Assembly (NCBI GenBank): GCA_024229935.1
Contig: JAAERX010000077.1
Location: 62,001 to 126,000 of the forward strand
Length of the DNA: 64,000 nt
From: Gammaproteobacteria bacterium
Lineage (GTDB): Bacteria; Pseudomonadota; Gammaproteobacteria; Steroidobacterales; GCA-2729495
Direction of reading: 5' to 3'
Part shown: positions 4,207-62,280 of the stretch, one piece after another
Numbering within the stretch: the first letter of the stretch is position 1
How the letters are laid out: each line of letters opens with the position of its first letter
Notes under the pieces: generated by a model
The model's input: only the letters and a program-made list of their open reading frames with translations
Told to the model about the DNA's origin: nothing
Databases searched by the model: none
Made by a program: the position numbers and the translations under genes

Positions 4207-5055
4207 ATGAATAAGCCTGACCCTGCAGCTGTTGCCACTATACCGATTAAAAAAATAGATCGTACGGGCATTAAAAGTGCTGATGATATCGTTGCTGTGG
4301 AAGAGCCGCTTGCAATCCGATTGACTTGGCCAGAGCTTGATAACGCTAAGTATGTTATTCGTGATATTGCGGTAACCATGCGGACGCCGGGTCTTGATGA
4401 AGAGCTTGCGCTGGGCTTTCTATTTACCGAGGGCATAATTCTTTCGGCTGATCAGGTGGTGCAGGTTACCCGGCCTGTTGGTGATGATGCCAATAATATT
4501 ATTCTCATTGAGTTGAATGATGTGCCTGCTCTGCCTGCAGGCAGGCTGGAACGAAACTTTTTTATTACATCCTCTTGTGGGATTTGCGGTAAAGCATCAA
4601 TTGATGCCGTTCGTACACATGCACAGTTTGATGTACGGGGTGATGAATTTATGATGCCTGCAGAGGTCCTGGCTACGCTACCAAAATTACTGGCAAGAGG
4701 TCAGGATACATTTGCGGGTACAGGAAGTGTTCATGCTGCAGCTTTATTCTCGTCTGTGGGTCTGTGTAGTGAGGTTTATGAAGATGTCGGGCGGCATAAT
4801 GCTGTTGATAAGCTGATGGGTGCAAACCTGTGTGCTGGTCGTTTGCCATTATGGAATATGGGGCTGTTTGTTAGTGGTAGGTCCAGTTTTGAGTTGGTAC
4901 AGAAAGCACGCATGGCTGGCTGCGCCATGCTGGCTGCCGTTGGTGCGCCTTCAAGCCTTGCTGTTGAGCTTGCATGGGAGTCAGATATGACACTGGTAGG
5001 CTTTGTGCGTGATGGGCGGTTTAATGTTTATGCGGGGCCTGCAAGGATAGCCTGA
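4207..5055 (+). CDS. fdhD: FdhD, sulfurtransferase for formate dehydrogenase maturation
   Basis: A 282-residue FdhD protein. FdhD transfers sulfur from a cysteine desulfurase to the bis-MGD cofactor, which activates formate dehydrogenase. The sulfur-carrying loop SSCGICGKAS gives Cys124 and Cys127, and the family motifs GTGSVHAAALF and EDVGRHNAVDKL are present. It starts 12 bases after the acyl-CoA ligase stop, so it probably belongs to the moaA transcript. No formate dehydrogenase subunit is encoded in this window, so its client lies elsewhere. Confidence 0.96.
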   Translation: MNKPDPAAVATIPIKKIDRTGIKSADDIVAVEEPLAIRLTWPELDNAKYVIRDIAVTMRTPGLDEELALGFLFTEGIILSADQVVQVTRPVGDDANNIILIELNDVPALPAGRLERNFFITSSCGICGKASIDAVRTHAQFDVRGDEFMMPAEVLATLPKLLARGQDTFAGTGSVHAAALFSSVGLCSEVYEDVGRHNAVDKLMGANLCAGRLPLWNMGLFVSGRSSFELVQKARMAGCAMLAAVGAPSSLAVELAWESDMTLVGFVRDGRFNVYAGPARIA

Positions 5056-9698: not shown

Positions 9699-10130
9699 TT
9701 TTGTAATCAGGCCACCGGTATCGGTCAACTGGATGTCTTCGGCGATGTGCTGATGGAGGGTGCACTTGAGTTAAGGATCGGCCCGGATGCTGCTGCTGCA
9801 TTGGTGGTCGACGGTGTGCTGGACCTGAGTGATGCCGTCCTTAGCGTACTTGCAGATCTTGATCCTGAAGGCGAACTCTATGATTTCACCCTCGGTCAGG
9901 GTGACAGTTTTGACCTTGTTAGCGCCACCCAGATCAACGGTACTTTCGATACACTGTTTATCAGCAGCTACATTGAGCTTGATGAGGGGCTGAACTGGCA
10001 GACTGAGTACGTGACTGAAAACGGTTTTGATATTCTGCCAGTTACGGTAGTGCCGATACCGGCAGCTGCATGGTTGTTTGCTTCGGCTCTGGCAGGTTTA
10101 GGTTGGATGCGACGAAAACAGAGTGCCTAG
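9699..10130 (+). pseudogene. 5'-truncated secreted protein with PEP-CTERM/VPxPA-type sorting tail
   Basis: The open frame begins immediately after the SDR stop and reads as structured protein (GQLDVFGDVLMEGALELRI) before the first possible start, a GTG at 9747. There is no signal peptide, although the C-terminus has a full sorting tail: VPIPAAAWLF, a hydrophobic stretch and GWMRRKQSA. Acidic beta-rich repeats such as GVLDLSDAVLSVLADL fit the extracellular part of such proteins. A tail of this type needs an exported precursor, so the gene has most likely lost its 5' end. The fusion point would be within about 10 bases of the DprE2-like stop. An intact relative of the tail is encoded at 37571-38383. 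Expression as a cytoplasmic fragment cannot be excluded. Confidence 0.6.
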
Positions 10131-10920: not shown

Positions 10921-11448
10921 ATGGATAATACTAGTAATGCCGCGCAGATAAGCCGCCGAACAATAATTGCTGCAGCTGGAGGCCTGGCTGCATGTGCCAC
11001 AGTTTCCACAGGAGGAAATAGACCCATGACTGAAGCACCTGTAAAGAGTGAGCTGGAAATAGAAAATGAACGAATTGTTACTCAGTTCTGTCTGGATTGG
11101 GCGACGCGTGATGTGGATCTGTTGGCATCCTACCTTGCTGAAGATGTTGAATATCAGATGTTTGAAGGCCGCCCGGATATTATTGGTCGTGATGCTTTTG
11201 TTAAGGAACTGGGAGGTTTTCTCAGCAATCTGAAAGAAGTGGAGTGGGAGATTCTGCGTACCTATGCTATCGGTGAGCTTGTGATAAATGACCGTGTGGA
11301 TCACTTTGTTGGTGAAGATGATAAGCGCAGTATGCATTTTTCTATAGCCGGTTTTTTTCTTGTCAGGGATGGGAAGATTAAACTTTGGAAGGATTATTCA
11401 CTGCCGGGTGGGATTTCTCAGGTAGGCGGCGCATTTACAGGTAGTTGA
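10921..11448 (+). CDS. Tat-exported lipoprotein of the limonene-epoxide hydrolase / NTF2-like fold
   Basis: A 175-residue protein. The N-terminus carries a twin-arginine motif, SRRTIIAAAGG at 11-21, directly followed by a lipobox LAAC with Cys25, so Tat export and lipid anchoring are predicted. The mature part is a limonene-1,2-epoxide-hydrolase-like domain. The catalytic triad appears to be present as Arg125 and Asp127 (NDRVDHF) and Asp158 (LWKDYS), and Tyr78 also matches. The family asparagine near Tyr78 is not obvious. Known members open epoxides or isomerise steroid-like substrates; an exported version is unusual. It is the first gene of the redox module that runs to 14886. Confidence 0.75.
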   Translation: MDNTSNAAQISRRTIIAAAGGLAACATVSTGGNRPMTEAPVKSELEIENERIVTQFCLDWATRDVDLLASYLAEDVEYQMFEGRPDIIGRDAFVKELGGFLSNLKEVEWEILRTYAIGELVINDRVDHFVGEDDKRSMHFSIAGFFLVRDGKIKLWKDYSLPGGISQVGGAFTGS

Positions 11449-11533
11449 TGGTTAAAATAACCACCAAAAACAATAGAATTGCCTGACTTTGTTATCGTGG
11501 GCAGATAATCGTAACTATATTGAAGGGAAGACC

Positions 11534-13114
11534 ATGGCAGTAAATGAAACAGAATCACACGCAGTACTTGAAAGTCTTTACAGTGTGATTGGTCACGACT
11601 ATGTCCTGACAAATGATGCGGACCGAGAATTTTATGCAATGGATGTATACAGTTTTCGTGAGTTACCAATTGCGGTAGTTCAGCCAGGTTCGTTGGAGGA
11701 TGTAACTGAGATAGCAAGAATTGCTGCTGAAGCAGGTATTGCTTTAGTGCCGCGTGGCGGTGGTGCTTCCTATACAGATGCTTATTTACCTGACACAGCA
11801 CAATCTTTAATGATTGATAGCTCAAGGATGAACCGTATTCTTGAGATTAATGATGAGGACATGTATGTCACGGTTGAACCCGGGATTACCTGGGCAGAGC
11901 TGACCAAAGCACTTAATGCCAAGGGCTTGCGCACTCCATTCTGGGGGCCTTTCTCGGGCCTGAAGGCCACGGTTGGTGGCTCAATGTCACAAAATGCTGT
12001 GAGCCTTGGCTCTGGTACTTTTGGAATCTCGGCTGATTCTGTGCTCTCTTTTGAAGTTGTGCTTCCAGGTGGTCAGGTTATCAGGACTGGCTCGAATGCA
12101 ACTGAAAATGGTGGCCCTTTTTTCCGCTGGTATGGACCGGATTTGACTGGCTTGTTTACAGGTGATGCGGGTGTGCTTGGGTTTAAGGCGCGGATTACAA
12201 TGCGGCTGATCAAAAACCCAACCCATAAGATGTCATGTTCTTATGGCTTTAATACTTTTGAGGAAATGGCGGCGGGGGCTGCCGCCGCTGCACGTGAGGG
12301 AGTTGCATCCGATAATTTTGGACTGGACCCCAAGTTGCAAGAGGGGCAGTTGGGTAGTGCAGATGCTGCCCAGAAAATAGAGGTGGCAAAGTCTGTTTAT
12401 GCAACAGCACGTAATCCGGTCGATGGTCTTAGCAAGCTTGTAAAGATGGCTATTGCCGGGGAAAGTTTTCTAAAAGCGTTCCCGTATTCAATGCACTTTA
12501 ATGTAGAGGGTTATAGTCGGGCAGAAGTTGCTACTAAATTGAACATGGTTCGGAAAGCAGTTGGCAGGCATGGCAATGAAATTGCCAATACTATTCCTGT
12601 AGTCCTGATGTCCAATCCATTTATTCCGTTATACCCAATACTTGGACCACGAGGGCAGCGTTGGGTGCCTATGCACGGCATCATGCCATTTTCCCGGTTG
12701 AATGATTTCCATGCGCGACTTAATGAGCTCTATGAAGAATATGCTGAGCGTATGGAGCGGCATAAGGTCGAGAAAGCGGCAATGTTTACCAGTATTAGTA
12801 CCCATGGCTTTCTGTATGAACCGGTATTTTACTGGGAGGATGATCGTACGCCTTATCACAAGCGGTATCTGCCGCAGGAATACCTGGATGTGTTGCCTGA
12901 GTATGAGGCTAATCCAGAAGGGCGTGCCTTGGTGGCCGAGATGAAAAGTCGTATATACGATATTTTTAATGAATTTGGCGCCATACATATGCAGATCGGC
13001 AAAGCTTATCCATATATGCGTGGACGTGAAGCCAATGCTGCTAATTTACTGAAGGCTATAAAGCAACAGCTTGATCCTCAGGGGCTAATGAATCCTGGCG
13101 GTCTTGGGCTTTAG
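11534..13114 (+). CDS. FAD-linked oxidase, VAO/PCMH family
   Basis: A 526-residue flavoprotein. The FAD-binding PCMH-type domain includes VPRGGGASYTDAYLP at 72-86, VEPGITWAELTKAL and LKATVGGSMSQNAVSLGSG. The C-terminal FAD-oxidase domain ends in LDPQGLMNPGGLGL. Such enzymes oxidise phenolic alcohols, 2-hydroxy acids or similar substrates and pass electrons to O2 or a cytochrome. The substrate cannot be read from the sequence. No signal peptide is visible, although several neighbours are exported. The start is ATG 11534, behind AAGGGAAG, rather than the upstream TTG at 11489. A cytochrome c gene three genes downstream recalls the p-cresol methylhydroxylase arrangement. Confidence 0.85.
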   Translation: MAVNETESHAVLESLYSVIGHDYVLTNDADREFYAMDVYSFRELPIAVVQPGSLEDVTEIARIAAEAGIALVPRGGGASYTDAYLPDTAQSLMIDSSRMNRILEINDEDMYVTVEPGITWAELTKALNAKGLRTPFWGPFSGLKATVGGSMSQNAVSLGSGTFGISADSVLSFEVVLPGGQVIRTGSNATENGGPFFRWYGPDLTGLFTGDAGVLGFKARITMRLIKNPTHKMSCSYGFNTFEEMAAGAAAAAREGVASDNFGLDPKLQEGQLGSADAAQKIEVAKSVYATARNPVDGLSKLVKMAIAGESFLKAFPYSMHFNVEGYSRAEVATKLNMVRKAVGRHGNEIANTIPVVLMSNPFIPLYPILGPRGQRWVPMHGIMPFSRLNDFHARLNELYEEYAERMERHKVEKAAMFTSISTHGFLYEPVFYWEDDRTPYHKRYLPQEYLDVLPEYEANPEGRALVAEMKSRIYDIFNEFGAIHMQIGKAYPYMRGREANAANLLKAIKQQLDPQGLMNPGGLGL

Positions 13115-13124
13115 TACAAAAGCC

Positions 13125-13958
13125 ATGACGAGCAAAGTGACGAGAAGAACGTTAATGGCAGGTGCCGGTGGTTTGTTAATTGCCGGAGCTGAGGGTTCTT
13201 TACCGGAGGTTTCGTCTGGGCCGATGCCGGGTACAGTTAAATTAGGCAGTCCCGAAGCGAATTTGGCTGGGTTTATACGCATGATGGCAAGTCTGGCTGA
13301 AGATGATGTGCCCTGGTGGTACAACGGTACTGTTTATGCAGTGCTGGGTGAAAAGCAGAACCCGCAGGCATTATTTACCTTTGAAGGCATGGAGCTTTAC
13401 CTTGTTACTCATCTTGATGATGGCACGTTCGAATTAACTGGCAATACTGTTACATTTTTCCGTGACTTTGAGGGTAAATGGTTGCATGACTATGCCAATC
13501 CATTCACTGGTGAAACAAATAGAGCAGGTGTTGCTGTACAAGGTGGTGGCCCCGGACGCGGTTTCAATGTTTCTGTTGATGGTGTAAGACCAACCAAACT
13601 GCGTGACAAGATTCCTGCTGAGCCATTAAAAAGATGGTGGAGTGTCGCTGCAAACCATGTCTGGATGAACAATGACACAGTTTACCCTCCAGGCCTGCCA
13701 CCGCCTCGCGCTCAAGGGCAGAGCATGTTTGTAGGTGTGGAGCAATTTAATAATTCTGATTTACTAAGATTGCCGTCAGTATTCAGCTCTACCGTGACAA
13801 TGCCATGGCCTGATTGGATGGAAATGGACGGTCATGAGGGGCACCTGTTATGGCATGCGGCCGGAGCAAAACTCAATTCACTTGATGAATTACCTAGAGA
13901 GTACCGAAAGCGTGCAGAAGCTGAATACCCTGAGCGGATGATTGTCGCTCGCAAATGA
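13125..13958 (+). CDS. Tat-exported DUF1838 family protein
   Basis: A 277-residue protein with a twin-arginine signal ([17 protein letters not shown], about residues 6-22). The rest matches the DUF1838 pattern as I know it: [11 protein letters not shown], then [14 protein letters not shown] with the W-x-NP-TGE core, and a C-terminal [18 protein letters not shown]. Function of the family is not established. DUF1838 genes are often found with catabolic oxidoreductases. The start is placed at ATG 13125, 10 bases after the oxidase stop; a TTG at 13104 would overlap the oxidase. The stop overlaps the ATG of the 2Fe-2S protein by four bases (ATGA), so the two are translated together. Confidence 0.78.
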
Positions 13959-14416
13959 TAAGTTTTAAGCTGAATGGTGAAGCTGTAACGGTTGATGTCC
14001 CTTCCGATATGCCTTTACTGTGGGTGTTGCGTGACCAGCTGGGTATGACGGGTACAAAGTTTGGTTGTGGTATTGCTCAGTGTGGTGCCTGTACCGTTCA
14101 TATGGATGGGCAGGTCATGCGTTCTTGTGTAGTGCCGGTTAATGCAGTGGCTGGACGTTCGGTGCGTACTATTGAGAACCTTGCTGATGATGCTAGTCTT
14201 AGCCTGGTACAGCAGGCTTGGATTGAGGAGCGAGTTGTACAGTGTGGTTATTGTCAGCCGGGGTTTTTAATGGCGGCAACGGCGCTATTGGATAAAAACC
14301 CCAACCCAAATGACTCTGAGATTGATGCAGCTATTACTAACATATGTCGCTGTGGGACTTACCCTCGTATTCGAAAAGCTATTCACCGGGCTGCTGCGAT
14401 ACGCAGGGGTGAATAA
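13955..14416 (+). CDS. 2Fe-2S small subunit of the molybdenum hydroxylase type (IorA-like), without its large subunit
   Basis: A 153-residue protein with two [2Fe-2S] clusters. The plant-type ferredoxin cluster has Cys38, Cys43, Cys46 and Cys58, and the all-helical second cluster has Cys97, Cys100, Cys131 and Cys133. This is the domain order of isoquinoline 1-oxidoreductase alpha and other xanthine-oxidase-family small subunits. Normally the large molybdopterin subunit follows at once. Here the next gene is a cytochrome c and no such subunit exists in the window. It either works with a large subunit encoded elsewhere or carries electrons between the FAD oxidase and the cytochrome. The start overlaps the DUF1838 stop. 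No signal peptide is seen. Confidence 0.92.
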
Positions 14417-14430
14417 TTAAACATTCTGAA

Positions 14431-14886
14431 ATGATGAGTAAAGATATGATGATACGGCAGTTCTTTTTGTTATTGGTGGTAGTTTTTTTTCTTGTCGCTT
14501 GTGCTCAGGAATCCCAACCACAAATTTCTGCTGAGGTAACTGAGCAGACAGCAGATGGTGCAATAATTGCAGGCGATGCTGTAGCTGGTCAGCGAATTTA
14601 TATTTTCTGTCAGTCCTGTCATTCCATTAATGAAGGTGGTGCTAATAAGATTGGGCCGAACCTCCACGGAATTTTCAATCAGAAGGCGGCACGGGTAGAG
14701 GGGTTTATGTACTCAGCAGCCCTGAGTTCTGCTGATATCACATGGACGGCTGATATGCTTGATCAATGGGTTGCCAGACCAGCAGCATTGGTTCCTGGTA
14801 CGACCATGGTATTTGCCGGGGTTAATGACCCTCAGCAAAGAGCTGACCTTATTGCATACCTCCAAGCATCTGGGGTTGAAAATTGA
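14431..14886 (+). CDS. Cytochrome c lipoprotein, mono-heme
   Basis: A 151-residue class I cytochrome c. A hydrophobic N-terminus ends in the lipobox LVAC with Cys24, so the mature protein is probably anchored to a membrane in the periplasm. The heme site is CQSCH (Cys60, Cys63, His64) and the likely axial ligand is Met126 in GTTMVFAGV. GPNLHGIFNQKAA is typical of cytochrome c550/c2-like proteins. It begins 14 bases after the 2Fe-2S gene and ends the module at a terminator. It is the likely electron acceptor for one of the upstream oxidoreductases. Confidence 0.93.
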   Translation: MMSKDMMIRQFFLLLVVVFFLVACAQESQPQISAEVTEQTADGAIIAGDAVAGQRIYIFCQSCHSINEGGANKIGPNLHGIFNQKAARVEGFMYSAALSSADITWTADMLDQWVARPAALVPGTTMVFAGVNDPQQRADLIAYLQASGVEN

Positions 14887-14922
14887 TAGTAAAGAAGTAT
14901 TTTTTAATGAGTTGAAGGTAAG

Positions 14923-14948
14923 GCGGTGCATTAGTACCGCTTTTTTTT
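14923..14948 (+). terminator. Rho-independent terminator after the cytochrome c gene
   Basis: GCGGT pairs with ACCGC across an 8-base loop and is followed by eight T residues. It closes the 10.9-14.9 kb module. Confidence 0.8.
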
Positions 14949-17080: not shown

Positions 17081-18028
17081 TTAGCTGCCGATCCCCCAGC
17101 CATTGCCCGCATAACCCTTGGGTAATCCGGCATCCGGAGTAAAGCCATACATATCTTCACCAGGTAAAGCGGCAATCACGATGTCTCTTACCAGGAGTAA
17201 TTTATCGAGATCAATGCCGGTCTTAAGACCCATGGCGTCTAGCATGAATACGAGATCTTCGGTGACTATGTTGCCACTGGCGCCGGGTGCAAAGGGACAG
17301 CCGCCAAGGCCACCTAAGGATGAGTCTACCGTAGTAATGCCTTCTTCAAGGGCGGCAACAGTATTGGCAAGCCCGAGTCCACGAGTGTTGTGCAGGTGTA
17401 CGCCCTGCAGTTTTTCATTACCGACTTCGGCCCGTATTAATTTGATCAGGCGGCGTAACTGAGCTGGATTTGCATAGCCTGTAGTGTCAGAAAGGCCGAC
17501 TTCATCGCAGCCCAATTCTATGAGTTTTACAGCAACCTCCACGACTTTCTTTTCTGGTACTTCACCTTCCAGTGTGCAGCCGAAGGCGGTTGATAGCCCA
17601 CCCTCGAAATCAGGTCGCTGGTCTGTAGGAAGGGTATTTAGAAGCTCAACGATTTTGCGTACCTCATCGTAGACCTGCTCATGGGTCTTTTTGAGGTTGG
17701 CCTGACTGTGTGTCTCGCTTACCGATAAGGGCAGGGTGATCTTGTGAGCCCCTGCCTTGATAGCATTCTCTGCGCCCTTGAAGTTAGGCACGAGTGCAGC
17801 CACTGCCAGCCCGGGAATGCTGCGGGCGTATTCAACAATCTCAGCTGTATCGGCCAGTTGCGGCAATAATTTTGGTGGGACGAATGAACCTACCTCAATT
17901 TCGGGCACGCCCGCATCAGCTTCTGCCTTGATCCACGCTTTTTTTGCCTCGGTCGGCATAATGGCCTTAATGCTTTGGAGGCCGTCTCTTGGGCCGACTT
18001 CACTGACCAGAATGTCTATAGAACTCAT
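17081..18028 (-). CDS. mvaB: Hydroxymethylglutaryl-CoA lyase family protein
   Basis: A 315-residue DRE-TIM metallolyase. The N-terminal VSEVGPRDGLQS (about 8-19) holds the conserved Arg-Asp. GLSDTTGYANPAQL and HLHNTRGLGLAN supply the HxH metal site, and GGLGGCPFAPGASGNIVTED holds the catalytic cysteine segment. HMG-CoA lyase splits HMG-CoA to acetoacetate and acetyl-CoA in leucine catabolism; relatives split citramalyl-CoA. GAGGAAG upstream of ATG 18028 supports the start. It is divergent from the class III CoA-transferase gene. No methylcrotonyl-CoA carboxylase or isovaleryl-CoA dehydrogenase is nearby, which leaves its true substrate open. Confidence 0.85.
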   Translation of the reverse strand: MSSIDILVSEVGPRDGLQSIKAIMPTEAKKAWIKAEADAGVPEIEVGSFVPPKLLPQLADTAEIVEYARSIPGLAVAALVPNFKGAENAIKAGAHKITLPLSVSETHSQANLKKTHEQVYDEVRKIVELLNTLPTDQRPDFEGGLSTAFGCTLEGEVPEKKVVEVAVKLIELGCDEVGLSDTTGYANPAQLRRLIKLIRAEVGNEKLQGVHLHNTRGLGLANTVAALEEGITTVDSSLGGLGGCPFAPGASGNIVTEDLVFMLDAMGLKTGIDLDKLLLVRDIVIAALPGEDMYGFTPDAGLPKGYAGNGWGIGS

Positions 18029-22216: not shown

Positions 22217-22684
22217 ATGTTTTCTCATATAGATAAGAATAATCAACCGACTATGGTTGATGTCAGTGATAAGGAGGCAACCCAGCGTAGGGCACATGCA
22301 AGCGCCCGGGTTTATCTGCCTGCTGATGTCCAGGCTGCAATACAGGGTAATGATATCCAAACGGCCAAAGGCCCGGTATTTCAGACAGCTATTATTGCCG
22401 GCACAATGGGCGCTAAACGTACCCATGACCTGATTCCATTTTGTCATCCGCTTGGGCTTGAGTCCTGCAAGATCAGTATTGACCTTGATGATGACGGGGT
22501 GGCAGTTGTTAACTGTTGTGTGCGGGTGATACATAAAACCGGTGTAGAGATGGAGGCGCTGACGGGCGCATCGATTGCTGCACTAACAATTTATGACATG
22601 TGTAAGGCCTTATCTCATGACATTGTTATTGGTGATATCCAACTGGAATCTAAGATTGGCGGTAAAAGTGACTATCAGAAATAA
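22217..22684 (+). CDS. moaC: Cyclic pyranopterin monophosphate synthase MoaC
   Basis: A 155-residue MoaC (E. coli about 161). It works after MoaA to form cPMP from the cyclised GTP. Family motifs are MVDVSDKEATQRRAHA (13-28), the DLIPFCHPLGLESCKI segment and KTGVEMEALTGASIAALTIYDMCKA, which holds catalytic lysines. It is followed at 22 bases by mobA and then folE, so it forms a small GTP/pterin operon separate from moaA at 1.5 kb. moaB/mog, moaD, moaE and moeA are not in the window. Confidence 0.97.
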   Translation: MFSHIDKNNQPTMVDVSDKEATQRRAHASARVYLPADVQAAIQGNDIQTAKGPVFQTAIIAGTMGAKRTHDLIPFCHPLGLESCKISIDLDDDGVAVVNCCVRVIHKTGVEMEALTGASIAALTIYDMCKALSHDIVIGDIQLESKIGGKSDYQK

Positions 22685-22706: not shown

Positions 22707-23327
22707 ATGAGTTCACAGGCACCATTGCTGGGGTTAGTGCTGGCGGGCGGGCAGAGTCGCCGTATGGGTGCGGATAAAGCCGCATTGGAAATAGCGGGCG
22801 CTAGTATGCTCTCAAGAGCCGTAGCTATGCTGGAACTGATAATTGATCAGGTCTATGTTTCAGTAAATGCGGATCAAAGCGATGATCCATTTCGAACAGA
22901 ATATTCGGTAATATCCGATCGATTCAGTGATATAGGGCCTGCGGCAGGGTTGCTGTCTGCACATTTATATTCACCAGAGTCAGCATGGTTAGTGATAGCG
23001 TGTGATATGCCGCTGCTTACTGCGGCTACCTTGCTGCATTTACGTGATTCCCGGAAATCTGAAATGGCTGCCACAGTATGGGCGGCAGAGGATTCATCAG
23101 GGCCAGAGCCGTTGTGTGCTATCTATGAACCCGGTACTCTTGCGGCGTTCCTTGAGCAGGTTACTGCTGGGGGCAACCCAAGCCCAAGGGATTGGTTGCT
23201 GGCAGCGCAGGTCAATGTGCTGGCGGCACCCAATCAGGGCGTATTGAATAGTGCAAATACCCCAGAGGAATTTGCAACAATGACAGAAAATTTAAATGCG
23301 CCTGTAGGCGCTACAGACAAGAAATAA
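22707..23327 (+). CDS. mobA: Molybdenum cofactor guanylyltransferase MobA
   Basis: A 206-residue nucleotidyltransferase with the signature LGLVLAGGQSRRMGADKAAL at about 7-26, the GTP/pterin-binding N-terminus. ISDRFSDIGPAAGLLSA and VIACDMPLLTAATL follow. It adds GMP to molybdopterin to give MGD, the cofactor form used by formate dehydrogenase and other DMSO-reductase-family enzymes, which agrees with fdhD in the window. The stop overlaps the folE start as TAATG. Confidence 0.93.
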   Translation: MSSQAPLLGLVLAGGQSRRMGADKAALEIAGASMLSRAVAMLELIIDQVYVSVNADQSDDPFRTEYSVISDRFSDIGPAAGLLSAHLYSPESAWLVIACDMPLLTAATLLHLRDSRKSEMAATVWAAEDSSGPEPLCAIYEPGTLAAFLEQVTAGGNPSPRDWLLAAQVNVLAAPNQGVLNSANTPEEFATMTENLNAPVGATDKK

Positions 23328-37167: not shown

Positions 37168-37473
37168 ATGAACGTACTCCCTCTATATCACCGTGTCTTT
37201 CTGTCCCTGCGTGATCAGATACTCAATGGCATGTAAGACTGGCGTGAGCCTATGCCCAGTGAGAGGTTGCTGTGTTTAGAATTTGACGTATCTCGTGCCA
37301 CCATTTGTCATGCTCTGGACCTGCTTGAAGAAGAGGGCCTCATAGAGCACCGGCAGGGTGTTCCTACTTCTGCAAAGCCGCTGGAGGCATTATTGTGCGA
37401 TCTTTTTCATCATCAGTCTGGCAGCGTTATGTTTGCTGCCATGAAGCAGGTTGTGCCGCCATTATTATGTTAA
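37168..37473 (+). pseudogene. Decayed GntR-family transcriptional regulator
   Basis: The frame from ATG 37168 reads as a GntR winged-helix domain, with LYHRVFLSLRDQILNGM. It is interrupted by TAA at 37234-37236 where the family has an aromatic residue and glycine. The same frame goes on with MPSERLLCLEFDVSRATI and ALDLLEEEGLIEHRQG. The effector-binding half is missing: after about 100 codons the frame ends at TAA 37471-37473, and the usual GKGTFV wing is degenerate (GVPTSAKP). A nonsense mutation plus truncation makes a non-functional gene likely; restart at ATG 37252 could only give a partial helix-turn-helix. Confidence 0.85.
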
Positions 37474-37570
37474 ACTCTTCCAAAAGAGGCTTAATAAAAA
37501 CGGACCGTTAGGCAGCTTTGTTGGCGGTTTCAATCTCATAAAAAACTATGCCACTAAACAAGGGGCTAAA

Positions 37571-38383
37571 GTGATTAAGAGCTTACAGGCGGCGTTGTCT
37601 GCACTTGTATTACTAACAATTGGCAGTGTTGCGAACGCAGCTGTTATTAACATAACCGATCCGGATGCTGCACCAGTCAGCTCTACTATTGCCGGTTCAG
37701 GTACCGCCAGTATCGTTCATTACGATGGTTCTGATGCCCTCCGCCTGACCACTAACGTAGATGTAAACGACAAAGCAAATGTCACGGTCGATGGCTCCTT
37801 TGGCAATTTTGGGGATTTGCTTAACGATTCTGCGCTGAACTTTGAATACCGTTTCCAAAAAGCAGACGTTGCAGGTGGCAACATTTATGCGGCCCCGGCT
37901 TTAAGCCTGTTTCTGCATGATGAAAATTTTGTCGGCGATGGTTTTCTTGAAATTAAATACGAACACTATTGGGGAACAGGTGTCACGGCAGTGACGACAG
38001 ATACCTGGATTACTGCAAATATTGATTTTACTCAGGGCCCGATGTGGGCTAATGGTGGTCTAGGGCTGAATAATAGTGCCGGTGGCCCCCCATTGTTTAC
38101 ACTGCAAAACATTCTCGATGGTACTGCTTCGTCTACTGCGGCCTTAACTGAGGATGTGGTGCTTGACTACAGCGCACTGTTGGATGCCGATTTGGTTGGT
38201 ATTGGGTTGACAGTTGGCACTTATAACGCCAATCAGGAAGGTTATGTGGACTATGTGTCAATGACAACGTCTTCTGGTACAGATGTGTACAACTTCTCTG
38301 TAGTGCCTATTCCCGCAGCAGTCTGGTTATTTGGTTCGGCTCTTGCAGGTTTGGGGTGGCTGAGACGGAAACAAATCGTTTAA
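37571..38383 (+). CDS. Secreted protein with PEP-CTERM/VPxPA-type sorting tail
   Basis: A 270-residue secreted protein. The signal peptide is MIKSLQAALSALVLLTIGSVANA and the tail is VVPIPAAVWLF, a hydrophobic segment and GWLRRKQ, as expected for exosortase/archaeosortase-like processing. Between them lies a beta-rich, acidic domain of about 220 residues (for example ADLVGIGLTVGTYNANQEGYVDYVS) with no recognised catalytic motif. Such proteins are usually exported, cleaved and joined to exopolysaccharide-linked surface structures. GTG 37571 is chosen because AGGGG lies 6 bases upstream and the signal peptide starts there; the frame extends upstream without a signal. No exosortase gene is in the window. 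Confidence 0.85.
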   Translation: MIKSLQAALSALVLLTIGSVANAAVINITDPDAAPVSSTIAGSGTASIVHYDGSDALRLTTNVDVNDKANVTVDGSFGNFGDLLNDSALNFEYRFQKADVAGGNIYAAPALSLFLHDENFVGDGFLEIKYEHYWGTGVTAVTTDTWITANIDFTQGPMWANGGLGLNNSAGGPPLFTLQNILDGTASSTAALTEDVVLDYSALLDADLVGIGLTVGTYNANQEGYVDYVSMTTSSGTDVYNFSVVPIPAAVWLFGSALAGLGWLRRKQIV

Positions 38384-60813: not shown

Positions 60814-62280
60814 ATGCGGATAGCCAAGGAAGCACTCACCTTTGATGATGTATTGCTCCGCCCGGAATATTCGGACATTTTGCCACGCGAGGTGGAACTG
60901 AATACTCGGGTCACCCGCGAAATTCAACTTAATATTCCGCTTGTATCTGCAGCCATGGATACGGTTACTGAATCCAGGCTTGCTATTGCTCTTGCGCAAG
61001 AGGGCGGGATGGGCATCATCCATAAAAATATGAGCCCAGCTGATCAGGCACGAGAAGTTCGTCGGGTTAAGGTGTTTGAAAGCGGTATCGTCACTAATCC
61101 AATTACTGTGTCTCCTGATAAAACTATCAGAGAAGTTATAGAGCTAACTCGAGCCAAAGGCATTTCCGGTATGCCAGTGGTTGATAAGGGTAAGACAGTT
61201 GGTATTGTGACGCACCGTGATTTGCGTTTTGAAACCCAGCTTGATGCACCTGTGTCATCCGTAATGACACATCAGGATAAGCTCATTACTGTAAAAGAAG
61301 GCGCCGACAAAGAAGAGGTGTTGTCGTTGCTGCATAAATACCGTATCGAAAAAGTATTAATCGTTAACGATAATTTTGAATTACGTGGAATGATTACTGC
61401 CAAGGATTTTCAGAAGGCGGTTGACTATCCACTGGCATGTAAGGACCATCGTGGTGCATTACGTGTTGGTGCTGCTGTTGGCACCGGCGGCGACACGGAT
61501 GAACGTGTGGAGCAACTGGTAGCCGCCGGGGTTGATCTGATTGTTGTTGATACGGCTCATGGTCACACCAAAGGTGTCATAGACCGGGTTGGGCAGGTTA
61601 AGAAACAGTACCCGGATATGCAGGTAGTTGCTGGCAATATTATTTCGAGTGATGCCGCTGAGGCGCTGGTTAAGGCTGGTGTAGACGGGGTAAAGGTTGG
61701 CATAGGGCCAGGTTCCATATGCACAACCAGGATTGTGGCAGGTGTTGGGGTTCCTCAGATAAGCGCGGTTGCTGAGGTTTCTGAGGCCATGTTGAAGAAG
61801 GGTATACCGGTGATTGCCGATGGTGGTATTCGGTATTCCGGTGATATTGCTAAAGCAATAGTGGCAGGTGCTTCCTGCACTATGATTGGTAGTCTCTTTG
61901 CAGGTACTGAGCAATCTCCGGGTGAGGTTGAGTTGTATCAGGGGCGCTCCTATAAGTCCTACCGAGGTATGGGCTCTTTAGGTGCTATGTCGCAACAGCA
62001 TGGTTCATCTGACCGTTATTTTCAGGATTCATCTGAGCAGTTGGAAAAGCTTGTGCCTGAAGGTGTCGAGGGTCGAGTGCCGTTCAAGGGCAGTATGGTG
62101 GCAATAGTGCATCAGCTGGTGGGTGGAATCCGGGCTGCGATGGGTTACACCGGTTGTGGCAGTATTGATGAGATGCGTAGTAAACCTCAGTTTGTGCGTA
62201 TTACCTCAGCTGGTATGCGTGAGAGTCATGTGCACGATGTTTCTATTACTAAAGAAGCCCCTAACTACCGATCAAAATAG
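60814..62280 (+). CDS. guaB: Inosine-5'-monophosphate dehydrogenase
   Basis: A 488-residue IMPDH with complete domains. The CBS pair (about 95-205) lies within the TIM barrel. The active-site loop is [20 protein letters not shown] with the catalytic cysteine, and [17 protein letters not shown] and [14 protein letters not shown] follow. It catalyses the first committed step to GMP. It forms the guaBA operon with guaA, 43 bases later. The 160-base upstream region probably holds the promoter; TACAAT at about 60785 is a possible -10 box but no good -35 box was found. Confidence 0.98.

Follow-up and report, generated by a model that had tools for sequence, protein, structure and literature searches.

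Our results suggest that five consecutive genes at positions 10921 to 14886 of a 64,000-nucleotide stretch of gammaproteobacterial DNA (the window, which spans positions 62001 to 126000 of contig C76) are probably two things that lie side by side rather than one redox chain. Specifically, the 2Fe-2S protein and the cytochrome c encoded there are likely to be the electron-transfer subunits of a split periplasmic molybdenum dehydrogenase, beside a separately conserved set that consists of a flavin adenine dinucleotide (FAD) oxidoreductase, a DUF1838 protein, and a cytochrome c. The molybdenum enzyme is, in our judgment, most plausibly of the kind represented by isoquinoline 1-oxidoreductase or by Protein Data Bank (PDB) entry 8gy3, which we take to be the membrane-bound aldehyde dehydrogenase (mALDH) of acetic acid bacteria (the entry says aldehyde dehydrogenase). 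The evidence is drawn from gene content, co-occurrence, adjacency, homology, and predicted folds in the window's own genome (G000; 2.7 Mb in 189 contigs, 99.53% complete) and in family genomes (the other G numbers; 40 in all), with L numbers denoting the loci that were drawn.

All five genes are on the + strand. The first (10921-11448) encodes a protein with the limonene epoxide hydrolase (LEH)/SnoaL fold (SnoaL_2, 46.6 bits against a cut-off of 27; LEH, 40.9 bits against 24) that has a twin-arginine start and a lipobox-like cysteine. It is followed by an FAD oxidoreductase of the VAO/PCMH superfamily without a signal-like start (11534-13114; Pfam FAD_binding_4, 122.7 bits) and by a DUF1838 protein with a twin-arginine start and a predicted beta barrel (13125-13958; Pfam PF08894, 59.9 bits against a gathering cut-off of 25). 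The last two genes encode a small subunit of the xanthine-oxidase family (XdhC/CoxS-type) with two 2Fe-2S sites (13955-14416; Fer2_2, 101.7 bits) and a mono-heme class I cytochrome c of 151 residues with a lipoprotein-like start (14431-14886; Cytochrom_C, 38.2 bits). Along the run, the intergenic distances are 85, 10, -4, and 14 bases. An earlier interpretation made from the letters of the DNA (the sequence-only reading) had described five consecutive same-strand genes, and gene calls and Pfam matches bear this out. It also held that the run ends at a terminator. A hairpin of 10 base pairs followed by a T run is indeed found at 14920-14943 on the + strand (fold z -2.90), although the scan recovered 3 terminator-like sites against 4.0 expected by chance and is not significant by itself. 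It further proposed two twin-arginine translocation (Tat) starts and two lipoproteins; twin-arginine starts on the LEH and DUF1838 proteins and lipobox-like cysteines on the LEH protein and the cytochrome were recognizable by eye, which is how such starts were judged throughout. Yet the Pfam TAT_signal model scored 15.6 bits on the LEH protein, under its cut-off of 22.7, and an S/T-RR stretch occurs in 8 of 15 LEH sequences, several of the others beginning at the domain itself.

The 2Fe-2S protein points to a molybdenum enzyme. Proteins of this type in the xanthine-oxidase family work with a molybdopterin subunit, and no molybdenum subunit lies beside the gene in the locus. The window protein matches Fer2 and Fer2_2 above cut-off and keeps all eight cysteines of the two 2Fe-2S sites; together with the CQSCH motif of the next protein, this confirms the claim of a hydroxylase-type 2Fe-2S subunit beside a c-type cytochrome. 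The best PDB match of the 2Fe-2S protein is 8gy3_B (4.2e-54). In the whole genome, two Fer2_2 matches (C76, C152) and two MoCoBD_1 matches (C152, C94) were found. Because the two genes on C152 adjoin, the window small subunit and the large subunit on C94 are left over, and by elimination we infer that they belong together. The latter (G000, C94, 32470-34698) is a MoCoBD molybdenum protein of 744 residues with a twin-arginine start, is probably the catalytic partner of the window protein, and directly adjoins another DUF1838 gene. Its best PDB match, over residues 4-741, is 8gy3_C (1.6e-69), and the PDB entry names 8gy3_B and 8gy3_C as the small and large subunit of one aldehyde dehydrogenase.

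Across the 40 family genomes, unpaired small and large subunits tend to occur together. We counted 52 2Fe-2S places and 69 large-subunit places (a single place for each gene, with E 1.2e-59 as the limit and contig fragments included), with subunits regarded as paired when no more than 1.5 kb apart; none of the 2Fe-2S places that were not entered lies within 1.5 kb of an entered large-subunit place. Of the 69 large subunits, 13 were contiguously paired; the other 56, including the one on C94, had no small-subunit gene within 1.5 kb. With unpaired small subunits defined by at least 55% identity to that of the window, 28 genomes had both kinds of unpaired subunit, 8 had neither, 3 had a large subunit only (G015, and G003 and G008, in both of which the contig ends before the 2Fe-2S place), and 1 had a small subunit only. 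The association (Fisher p = 1.8e-5) is indicative only, as the genomes are related and their independence is overstated. The small subunits that belong to contiguous pairs share 53-62% identity with the window protein; that of G036 reaches 64-68% in two pieces and 59% over its full length. A cytochrome c gene follows the unpaired small subunit in 28 of 29 genomes. Furthermore, DUF1838, 2Fe-2S, and cytochrome genes stand together in five genomes where the FAD gene stands apart (G018, G019, G028, G029, and G034), and a G032 contig carries the same three without an FAD gene.

The surroundings of the large subunits were also read. Among 20 type-A large-subunit places outside the window's own genome, 13 loci (L205-L217) were drawn, with a fourteenth, cut by a contig end, drawn separately. 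In 11 of the 13, a DUF1838 gene and/or a gene resembling short-chain dehydrogenases/reductases (SDRs) directly precedes the large subunit; two of these SDR-like genes match SDR family models, and the others were named by eye. In Pfam, a 2Fe-2S domain was seen in none of six other large subunits, four of the second kind (L218-L220, L241) and two from contiguous pairs (L222, L225).

Genes for supplying the molybdenum cofactor flank the locus and also speak for this reading. In the window they are MoaA (1473-2525, +; TIGR02666, 380.8 bits) and MoaC (22217-22684, +; TIGR00581, 168.7 bits) for molybdenum cofactor biosynthesis and FdhD for sulfur transfer to molybdenum enzymes (4207-5055, +; TIGR00129, 144.6 bits), all above cut-off, as well as a MobA-like nucleotidyltransferase (22707-23327, +; PRK14490, 169 bits, below the cut-off of 354). 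XdhC proteins are maturation factors of xanthine-oxidase-family enzymes, and the one XdhC_C match in the genome is located 359 bases ahead of the window. In G002 and G006, XdhC-like and MoeA-like genes (best matches, below NCBIfam cut-offs) are found approximately 5-7 kb from the module.

If this interpretation is correct, the substrate would be hydroxylated or dehydrogenated at the molybdenum of the large subunit. The small subunit, which has no signal of its own, would be exported by Tat together with the folded large subunit. Electrons might then pass from molybdenum through one 2Fe-2S cluster and the other to cytochrome c and on to a terminal oxidase.

Several observations weigh against a split molybdenum dehydrogenase, in addition to the relatedness of the genomes noted above. 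The link between the subunits is drawn from co-occurrence and elimination rather than from adjacency. The small and large halves are adjacent in none of the five genus genomes, and at none of the 36 FAD loci is there a large-subunit match within 8 kb. The 55% identity threshold was chosen by the analyst. A gene could have been missed, given that the window's genome is in 189 contigs and most family genomes are draft metagenome-assembled genomes, and the window small subunit may have other partners. Among the individual genomes, G015 has a large subunit (39%) but small subunits of only 40-45% identity, G026 (73% complete) has the small subunit without a large one, and the unpaired small subunit of G007 has no adjoining cytochrome match. 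At two type-A loci (L214, L216), DUF1838 and SDR genes are both missing, and no DUF1838 was seen among the genes printed at seven large-subunit loci of other kinds (L218-L224). Finally, the cytochrome is a mono-heme protein, not the tri-heme subunit of mALDH, and so could be a general carrier.

The mALDH is described as carrying a molybdenum cofactor, two 2Fe-2S clusters, and heme c in three subunits, one of them a tri-heme cytochrome (PMC9171043). Like mALDH and 8gy3, the system described here would combine a molybdenum large subunit with a two-cluster 2Fe-2S small subunit, since the C94 protein and the window protein both find their best PDB match in 8gy3. Unlike in mALDH, the small and large genes are on different contigs, the cytochrome is a mono-heme protein of 151 residues, and DUF1838 adjoins the large subunit. 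A further parallel is found in Pseudomonas putida KT2440, where PP_3621-PP_3623 are listed as IorA-II, an isoquinoline 1-oxidoreductase beta subunit, and the AdhB cytochrome c in a published table (PMC7188995). To the extent that this description allows (the comparison is by description only), the two systems share a 2Fe-2S alpha subunit, a beta subunit, and a cytochrome c, which have consecutive tags in P. putida but are split here.

FAD matches of at least 60% identity were found in 37 of 40 family genomes, with none at that level in G012, G026, and G037, and 36 FAD loci were read after a G032 match on a contig fragment was left out. Among the 22 loci with at least 6 kb of downstream sequence, same-strand partners within 8 kb were cytochrome c in 18, 2Fe-2S in 13, DUF1838 in 10, and LEH in 7. 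The sequence-only reading had named scattered genes with unrelated neighbors in relatives as a refuting condition, and on these counts the outcome is mixed. In G010 and G011, the LEH, FAD, DUF1838, and cytochrome genes are present and both 2Fe-2S and large-subunit matches are absent genome-wide. Outside the family, three loci (L148, L149, and L172, the last from Woeseia sp.) carry genes for an alpha/beta hydrolase, the FAD protein, DUF1838, and cytochrome. In the five genomes of L147, L148, L149, L150, and L172, whose completeness is not given, neither a 2Fe-2S nor a large-subunit match was found. The set thus persists in genomes with neither molybdenum subunit, and its FAD protein, DUF1838, and cytochrome seem to have some function independent of the molybdenum enzyme. 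Together, often with an LEH/SnoaL or alpha/beta-hydrolase gene, these three seem to form a set that is conserved separately. These patterns do not support the earlier proposal of one module in which electrons pass from FAD through 2Fe-2S to cytochrome, as the 2Fe-2S protein is most likely part of a molybdenum dehydrogenase encoded elsewhere. A role for the 2Fe-2S protein as electron partner to the FAD enzyme was likewise rejected, since its best PDB relatives are small subunits of molybdenum enzymes and it is absent where the FAD set persists.

The FAD protein has a complete VAO-superfamily fold in its structural model (pLDDT 88.2), in agreement with the earlier description of a VAO-type flavoprotein. 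With VIA-align, D-lactate dehydrogenases ranked highest (Z 36, root-mean-square deviation [rmsd] 2.5, about 440 residues aligned), followed by pinoresinol hydroxylase 9h40 (Z 33.3, rmsd 3.6, 443 aligned) and by VAO, eugenol oxidase, and p-cresol methylhydroxylase (Z 28-30). Like 4-cresol dehydrogenase, eugenol oxidase, and pinoresinol hydroxylase, it matches FAD_binding_4 and shares the whole fold (Z 28-33). In 4-alkylphenol-oxidizing VAO/PCMH enzymes, an adjacent Tyr-Arg pair binds phenolate. Unlike these phenol oxidizers, the window protein has no Tyr-Arg dipeptide anywhere in its 526 residues, lacks a signal-like start, and is closer in fold to D-lactate dehydrogenases; its identity as a canonical phenol oxidase was rejected. 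Its likeness to D-2-hydroxyacid dehydrogenases (LDHD, GlcD) lies in the best fold match and in His 485 (ATG numbering; 484 in alignments), which aligns with the His of the EHG motif. Yet neither the HxGDGNxH metal motif nor the EHG Glu of those enzymes is present in the window protein or in four relatives aligned with it, and this identity was rejected for that reason as well; both motifs are present in four GlcD-like proteins of these genomes. No characterized member of the subfamily was found.

The location of the FAD protein also bears on its role. A flavoprotein outside the cytoplasm, which the sequence-only reading would imply, is not supported. None of 44 aligned FAD proteins has an N-terminal hydrophobic segment (highest 14-residue Kyte-Doolittle mean, 1.49), and from its sequence the protein is probably cytoplasmic. 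This alignment comprises 34 of 75 loci plus ten other sequences; the omitted sequences include L154 (in-frame stop) and L172 (split frame), and the L163 sequence begins after an in-frame stop.

An alternative explanation is that the FAD protein and cytochrome c form a flavocytochrome of the p-cresol methylhydroxylase or pinoresinol hydroxylase type, into which the 2Fe-2S gene was inserted later. The frequent occurrence of the cytochrome no more than 8 kb from the FAD gene (18 of the 22 sufficiently long loci) would fit, as would the same proximity in genomes that lack an unpaired 2Fe-2S subunit (G005, G010, G011, G014, G015, G036, and G039) and the presence of 9h40 among the better folds. Yet without a signal-like N-terminus in any of the 44 sequences, donor and acceptor may sit on opposite sides of the membrane, the Tyr-Arg dipeptide is missing, and D-lactate dehydrogenases match better. 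We regard a flavocytochrome as doubtful, perhaps one chance among several.

It is somewhat less probable still that the genes are neighbors by convenience, sharing a molybdenum-cofactor neighborhood without forming a pathway. Consistent with mere convenience, the FAD gene has no partner within 8 kb in G018, G019, G028, G029, G030, and G034, where the downstream sequence is merely 1.7 kb in G028 and 4.7 kb in G034. On the other hand, DUF1838 keeps with 2Fe-2S and cytochrome in five genomes where FAD is apart (G018, G019, G028, G029, and G034), and the order FAD, DUF1838, cytochrome recurs outside the family (L148, L149, and L172), with roughly 1.8-1.9 kb between FAD and DUF1838.

The weakest alternative is the original one, that all five proteins make up a single extracytoplasmic module that oxidizes a hydrophobic or aromatic compound and uses a porin for uptake, which we consider very improbable: the exact five-gene order is found in 5 of 36 FAD loci (G000, G001, G002, and G004 of the genus and G017 of a neighboring genus), and in the window the gaps are short and a single terminator-like hairpin follows, but the locus lacks the molybdenum subunit with which the 2Fe-2S family works. 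In the other 31 loci (some cut by contig ends) the five genes are dispersed or not all present, the FAD protein and some LEH relatives lack a signal-like start, and in L149, from outside the family, phosphate genes surround a related porin. There the FAD set runs into PhoU_div, PHO4, Porin_5, a gene like that at 17081-18028 of the window, and PhoX (L149, 14800-21165). From this arrangement, the window porin may serve phosphate rather than substrate uptake. In the window's own genome, PhoU_div and PHO4 phosphate transporter genes also occur within about 1 kb of the pair formed by DUF1838 and the molybdenum subunit (L007, 8520-10471).

Functional residues of limonene-1,2-epoxide hydrolases are an Asp-Arg-Asp triad, a Tyr, and an Asn. 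The best PDB match of the LEH protein is limonene epoxide hydrolase 4xby (9.5e-11), and its fold is above the Pfam LEH cut-off. In all 15 LEH sequences, R-x-D and W-(K/R)-D are kept, as are Asp-Arg-Asp and Tyr, and the epoxide-hydrolase-like fold that had been proposed is borne out. Like the limonene-1,2-epoxide hydrolases, the protein aligns at R-x-D, the later Asp, and Tyr; unlike in them, the Asn of Tyr-Gln-Asn is replaced in 15 of 15 sequences, and YQN is found in none. The cytochrome c has a single CxxCH motif, and its PDB matches are of the c2 and mitochondrial types.

DUF1838 is a poorly understood family. The literature yielded just a line in a table that names ArtU of Streptomyces, and nothing for PF08894, with most subscription journals outside the search. 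The structural model (pLDDT 86.9) is mostly beta, with about ten long strands. VIA-align matched it to BFA1 (Z 10.3), Rv2717c (9.0), a DUF3598 protein (8.9), a CpcS-like protein (8.5), and nitrobindin (8.2) over 123-143 residues; the outer-membrane protein OpcA scores alike (Z 9.0). With Foldseek, the single match below E 0.001 was a PsbO chain with poor TM-scores. On this basis, the modeled protein is likely a barrel and perhaps a calycin-like one. An alignment of 36 of 47 proteins, one of which (L132) has a frame-shifted end, contains no invariant or nearly invariant His and so lends no support to a nitrobindin-like heme protein. DUF1838 would probably act as an exported barrel that binds a hydrophobic compound.

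The distribution of DUF1838 is uneven. It occurs in 38 of 40 family genomes (median 10.5 copies, range 0-18), in 3 of 143 genomes of an even class-wide sample that includes the window's own, and in 0 of 14 control genomes. The window's genome has it at 10 places, where neighbors include the molybdenum subunit (L007), SDR/NmrA (L005), and a luciferase-like monooxygenase (L002). At L003 (6828-9686), a divergent DUF1838 gene has cytochrome c as its neighbor, followed by a SnoaL_3 protein whose start looks signal-like (by eye); three of the window's five partners recur in this way. Neighbors without such a theme are GDPD (L004), a member of the beta-lactamase family (L006), and a protein without a Pfam family (L001), and no common theme could be named among DUF1838 neighbors in two other genomes of the class.

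The numbers of unpaired subunits allow a more tentative extension. An unpaired small subunit is never present more than once per genome, and at least two unpaired large subunits are found in 17 of 28 genomes, with a maximum of four (G030, contig fragments counted). Because genomes hold up to four unpaired large subunits but never more than one unpaired small subunit, it is possible, though we would not count on it, that one 2Fe-2S/cytochrome c pair serves several scattered molybdenum subunits in a plug-in system. Exported DUF1838 barrels would then deliver hydrophobic substrates or products to these and to other oxidoreductases. If true, xanthine-oxidase-family dehydrogenases could combine one shared module for electron transfer with catalytic subunits that are interchangeable. 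The annotation of orphan small and large subunits would change, and several activities would be lost with one small-subunit gene. DUF1838 would gain a testable setting, being multiplied in the family and found beside genes for molybdenum subunits, FAD proteins, SDRs, luciferase-like proteins, cytochromes, and SnoaL proteins. The sequence-only reading knew of no described pathway with exactly this set, and our search agrees: no published description of the five genes or of the split-subunit arrangement was found, a weak negative given that most subscription journals fell outside it. The kind of enzyme is itself known; unusual here would be that several large subunits share a single small one, alongside the strong multiplication of DUF1838.

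Some minor observations concern relatives of the FAD gene and its surroundings. FAD paralogs of about 50% identity lie near exopolysaccharide-like genes (neighbors named by eye), and a UbiD-like decarboxylase gene (by eye) comes after two others of 33-38% identity (L040, 8680-11764; L043, 1-2794). SDR-family proteins with twin-arginine lipoprotein-like starts (by eye) are encoded near the FAD gene at L144 (11947-12969) and L145 (13715-14755), and similar starts were seen by eye at L145 (12708-13718) and in L146. Export is unusual for SDRs, since NAD(P) would not be expected outside the cytoplasm. A lipoprotein-like protein of 600 residues is encoded between FAD and DUF1838 in L149 (11548-13350) and, in two frames, in L172 (11579-13350); searches with the L149 protein gave no Pfam family at E 0.01, none from NCBIfam at E 0.001, and nothing in the PDB below E 0.27. 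In the window itself, the proteins encoded at 9747-10130, which has no Pfam match, and at 37451-38383 end in similar VPIPAAxWLFxSALAGLGWxRRK tails, which resemble a PEP-CTERM-type sorting signal.

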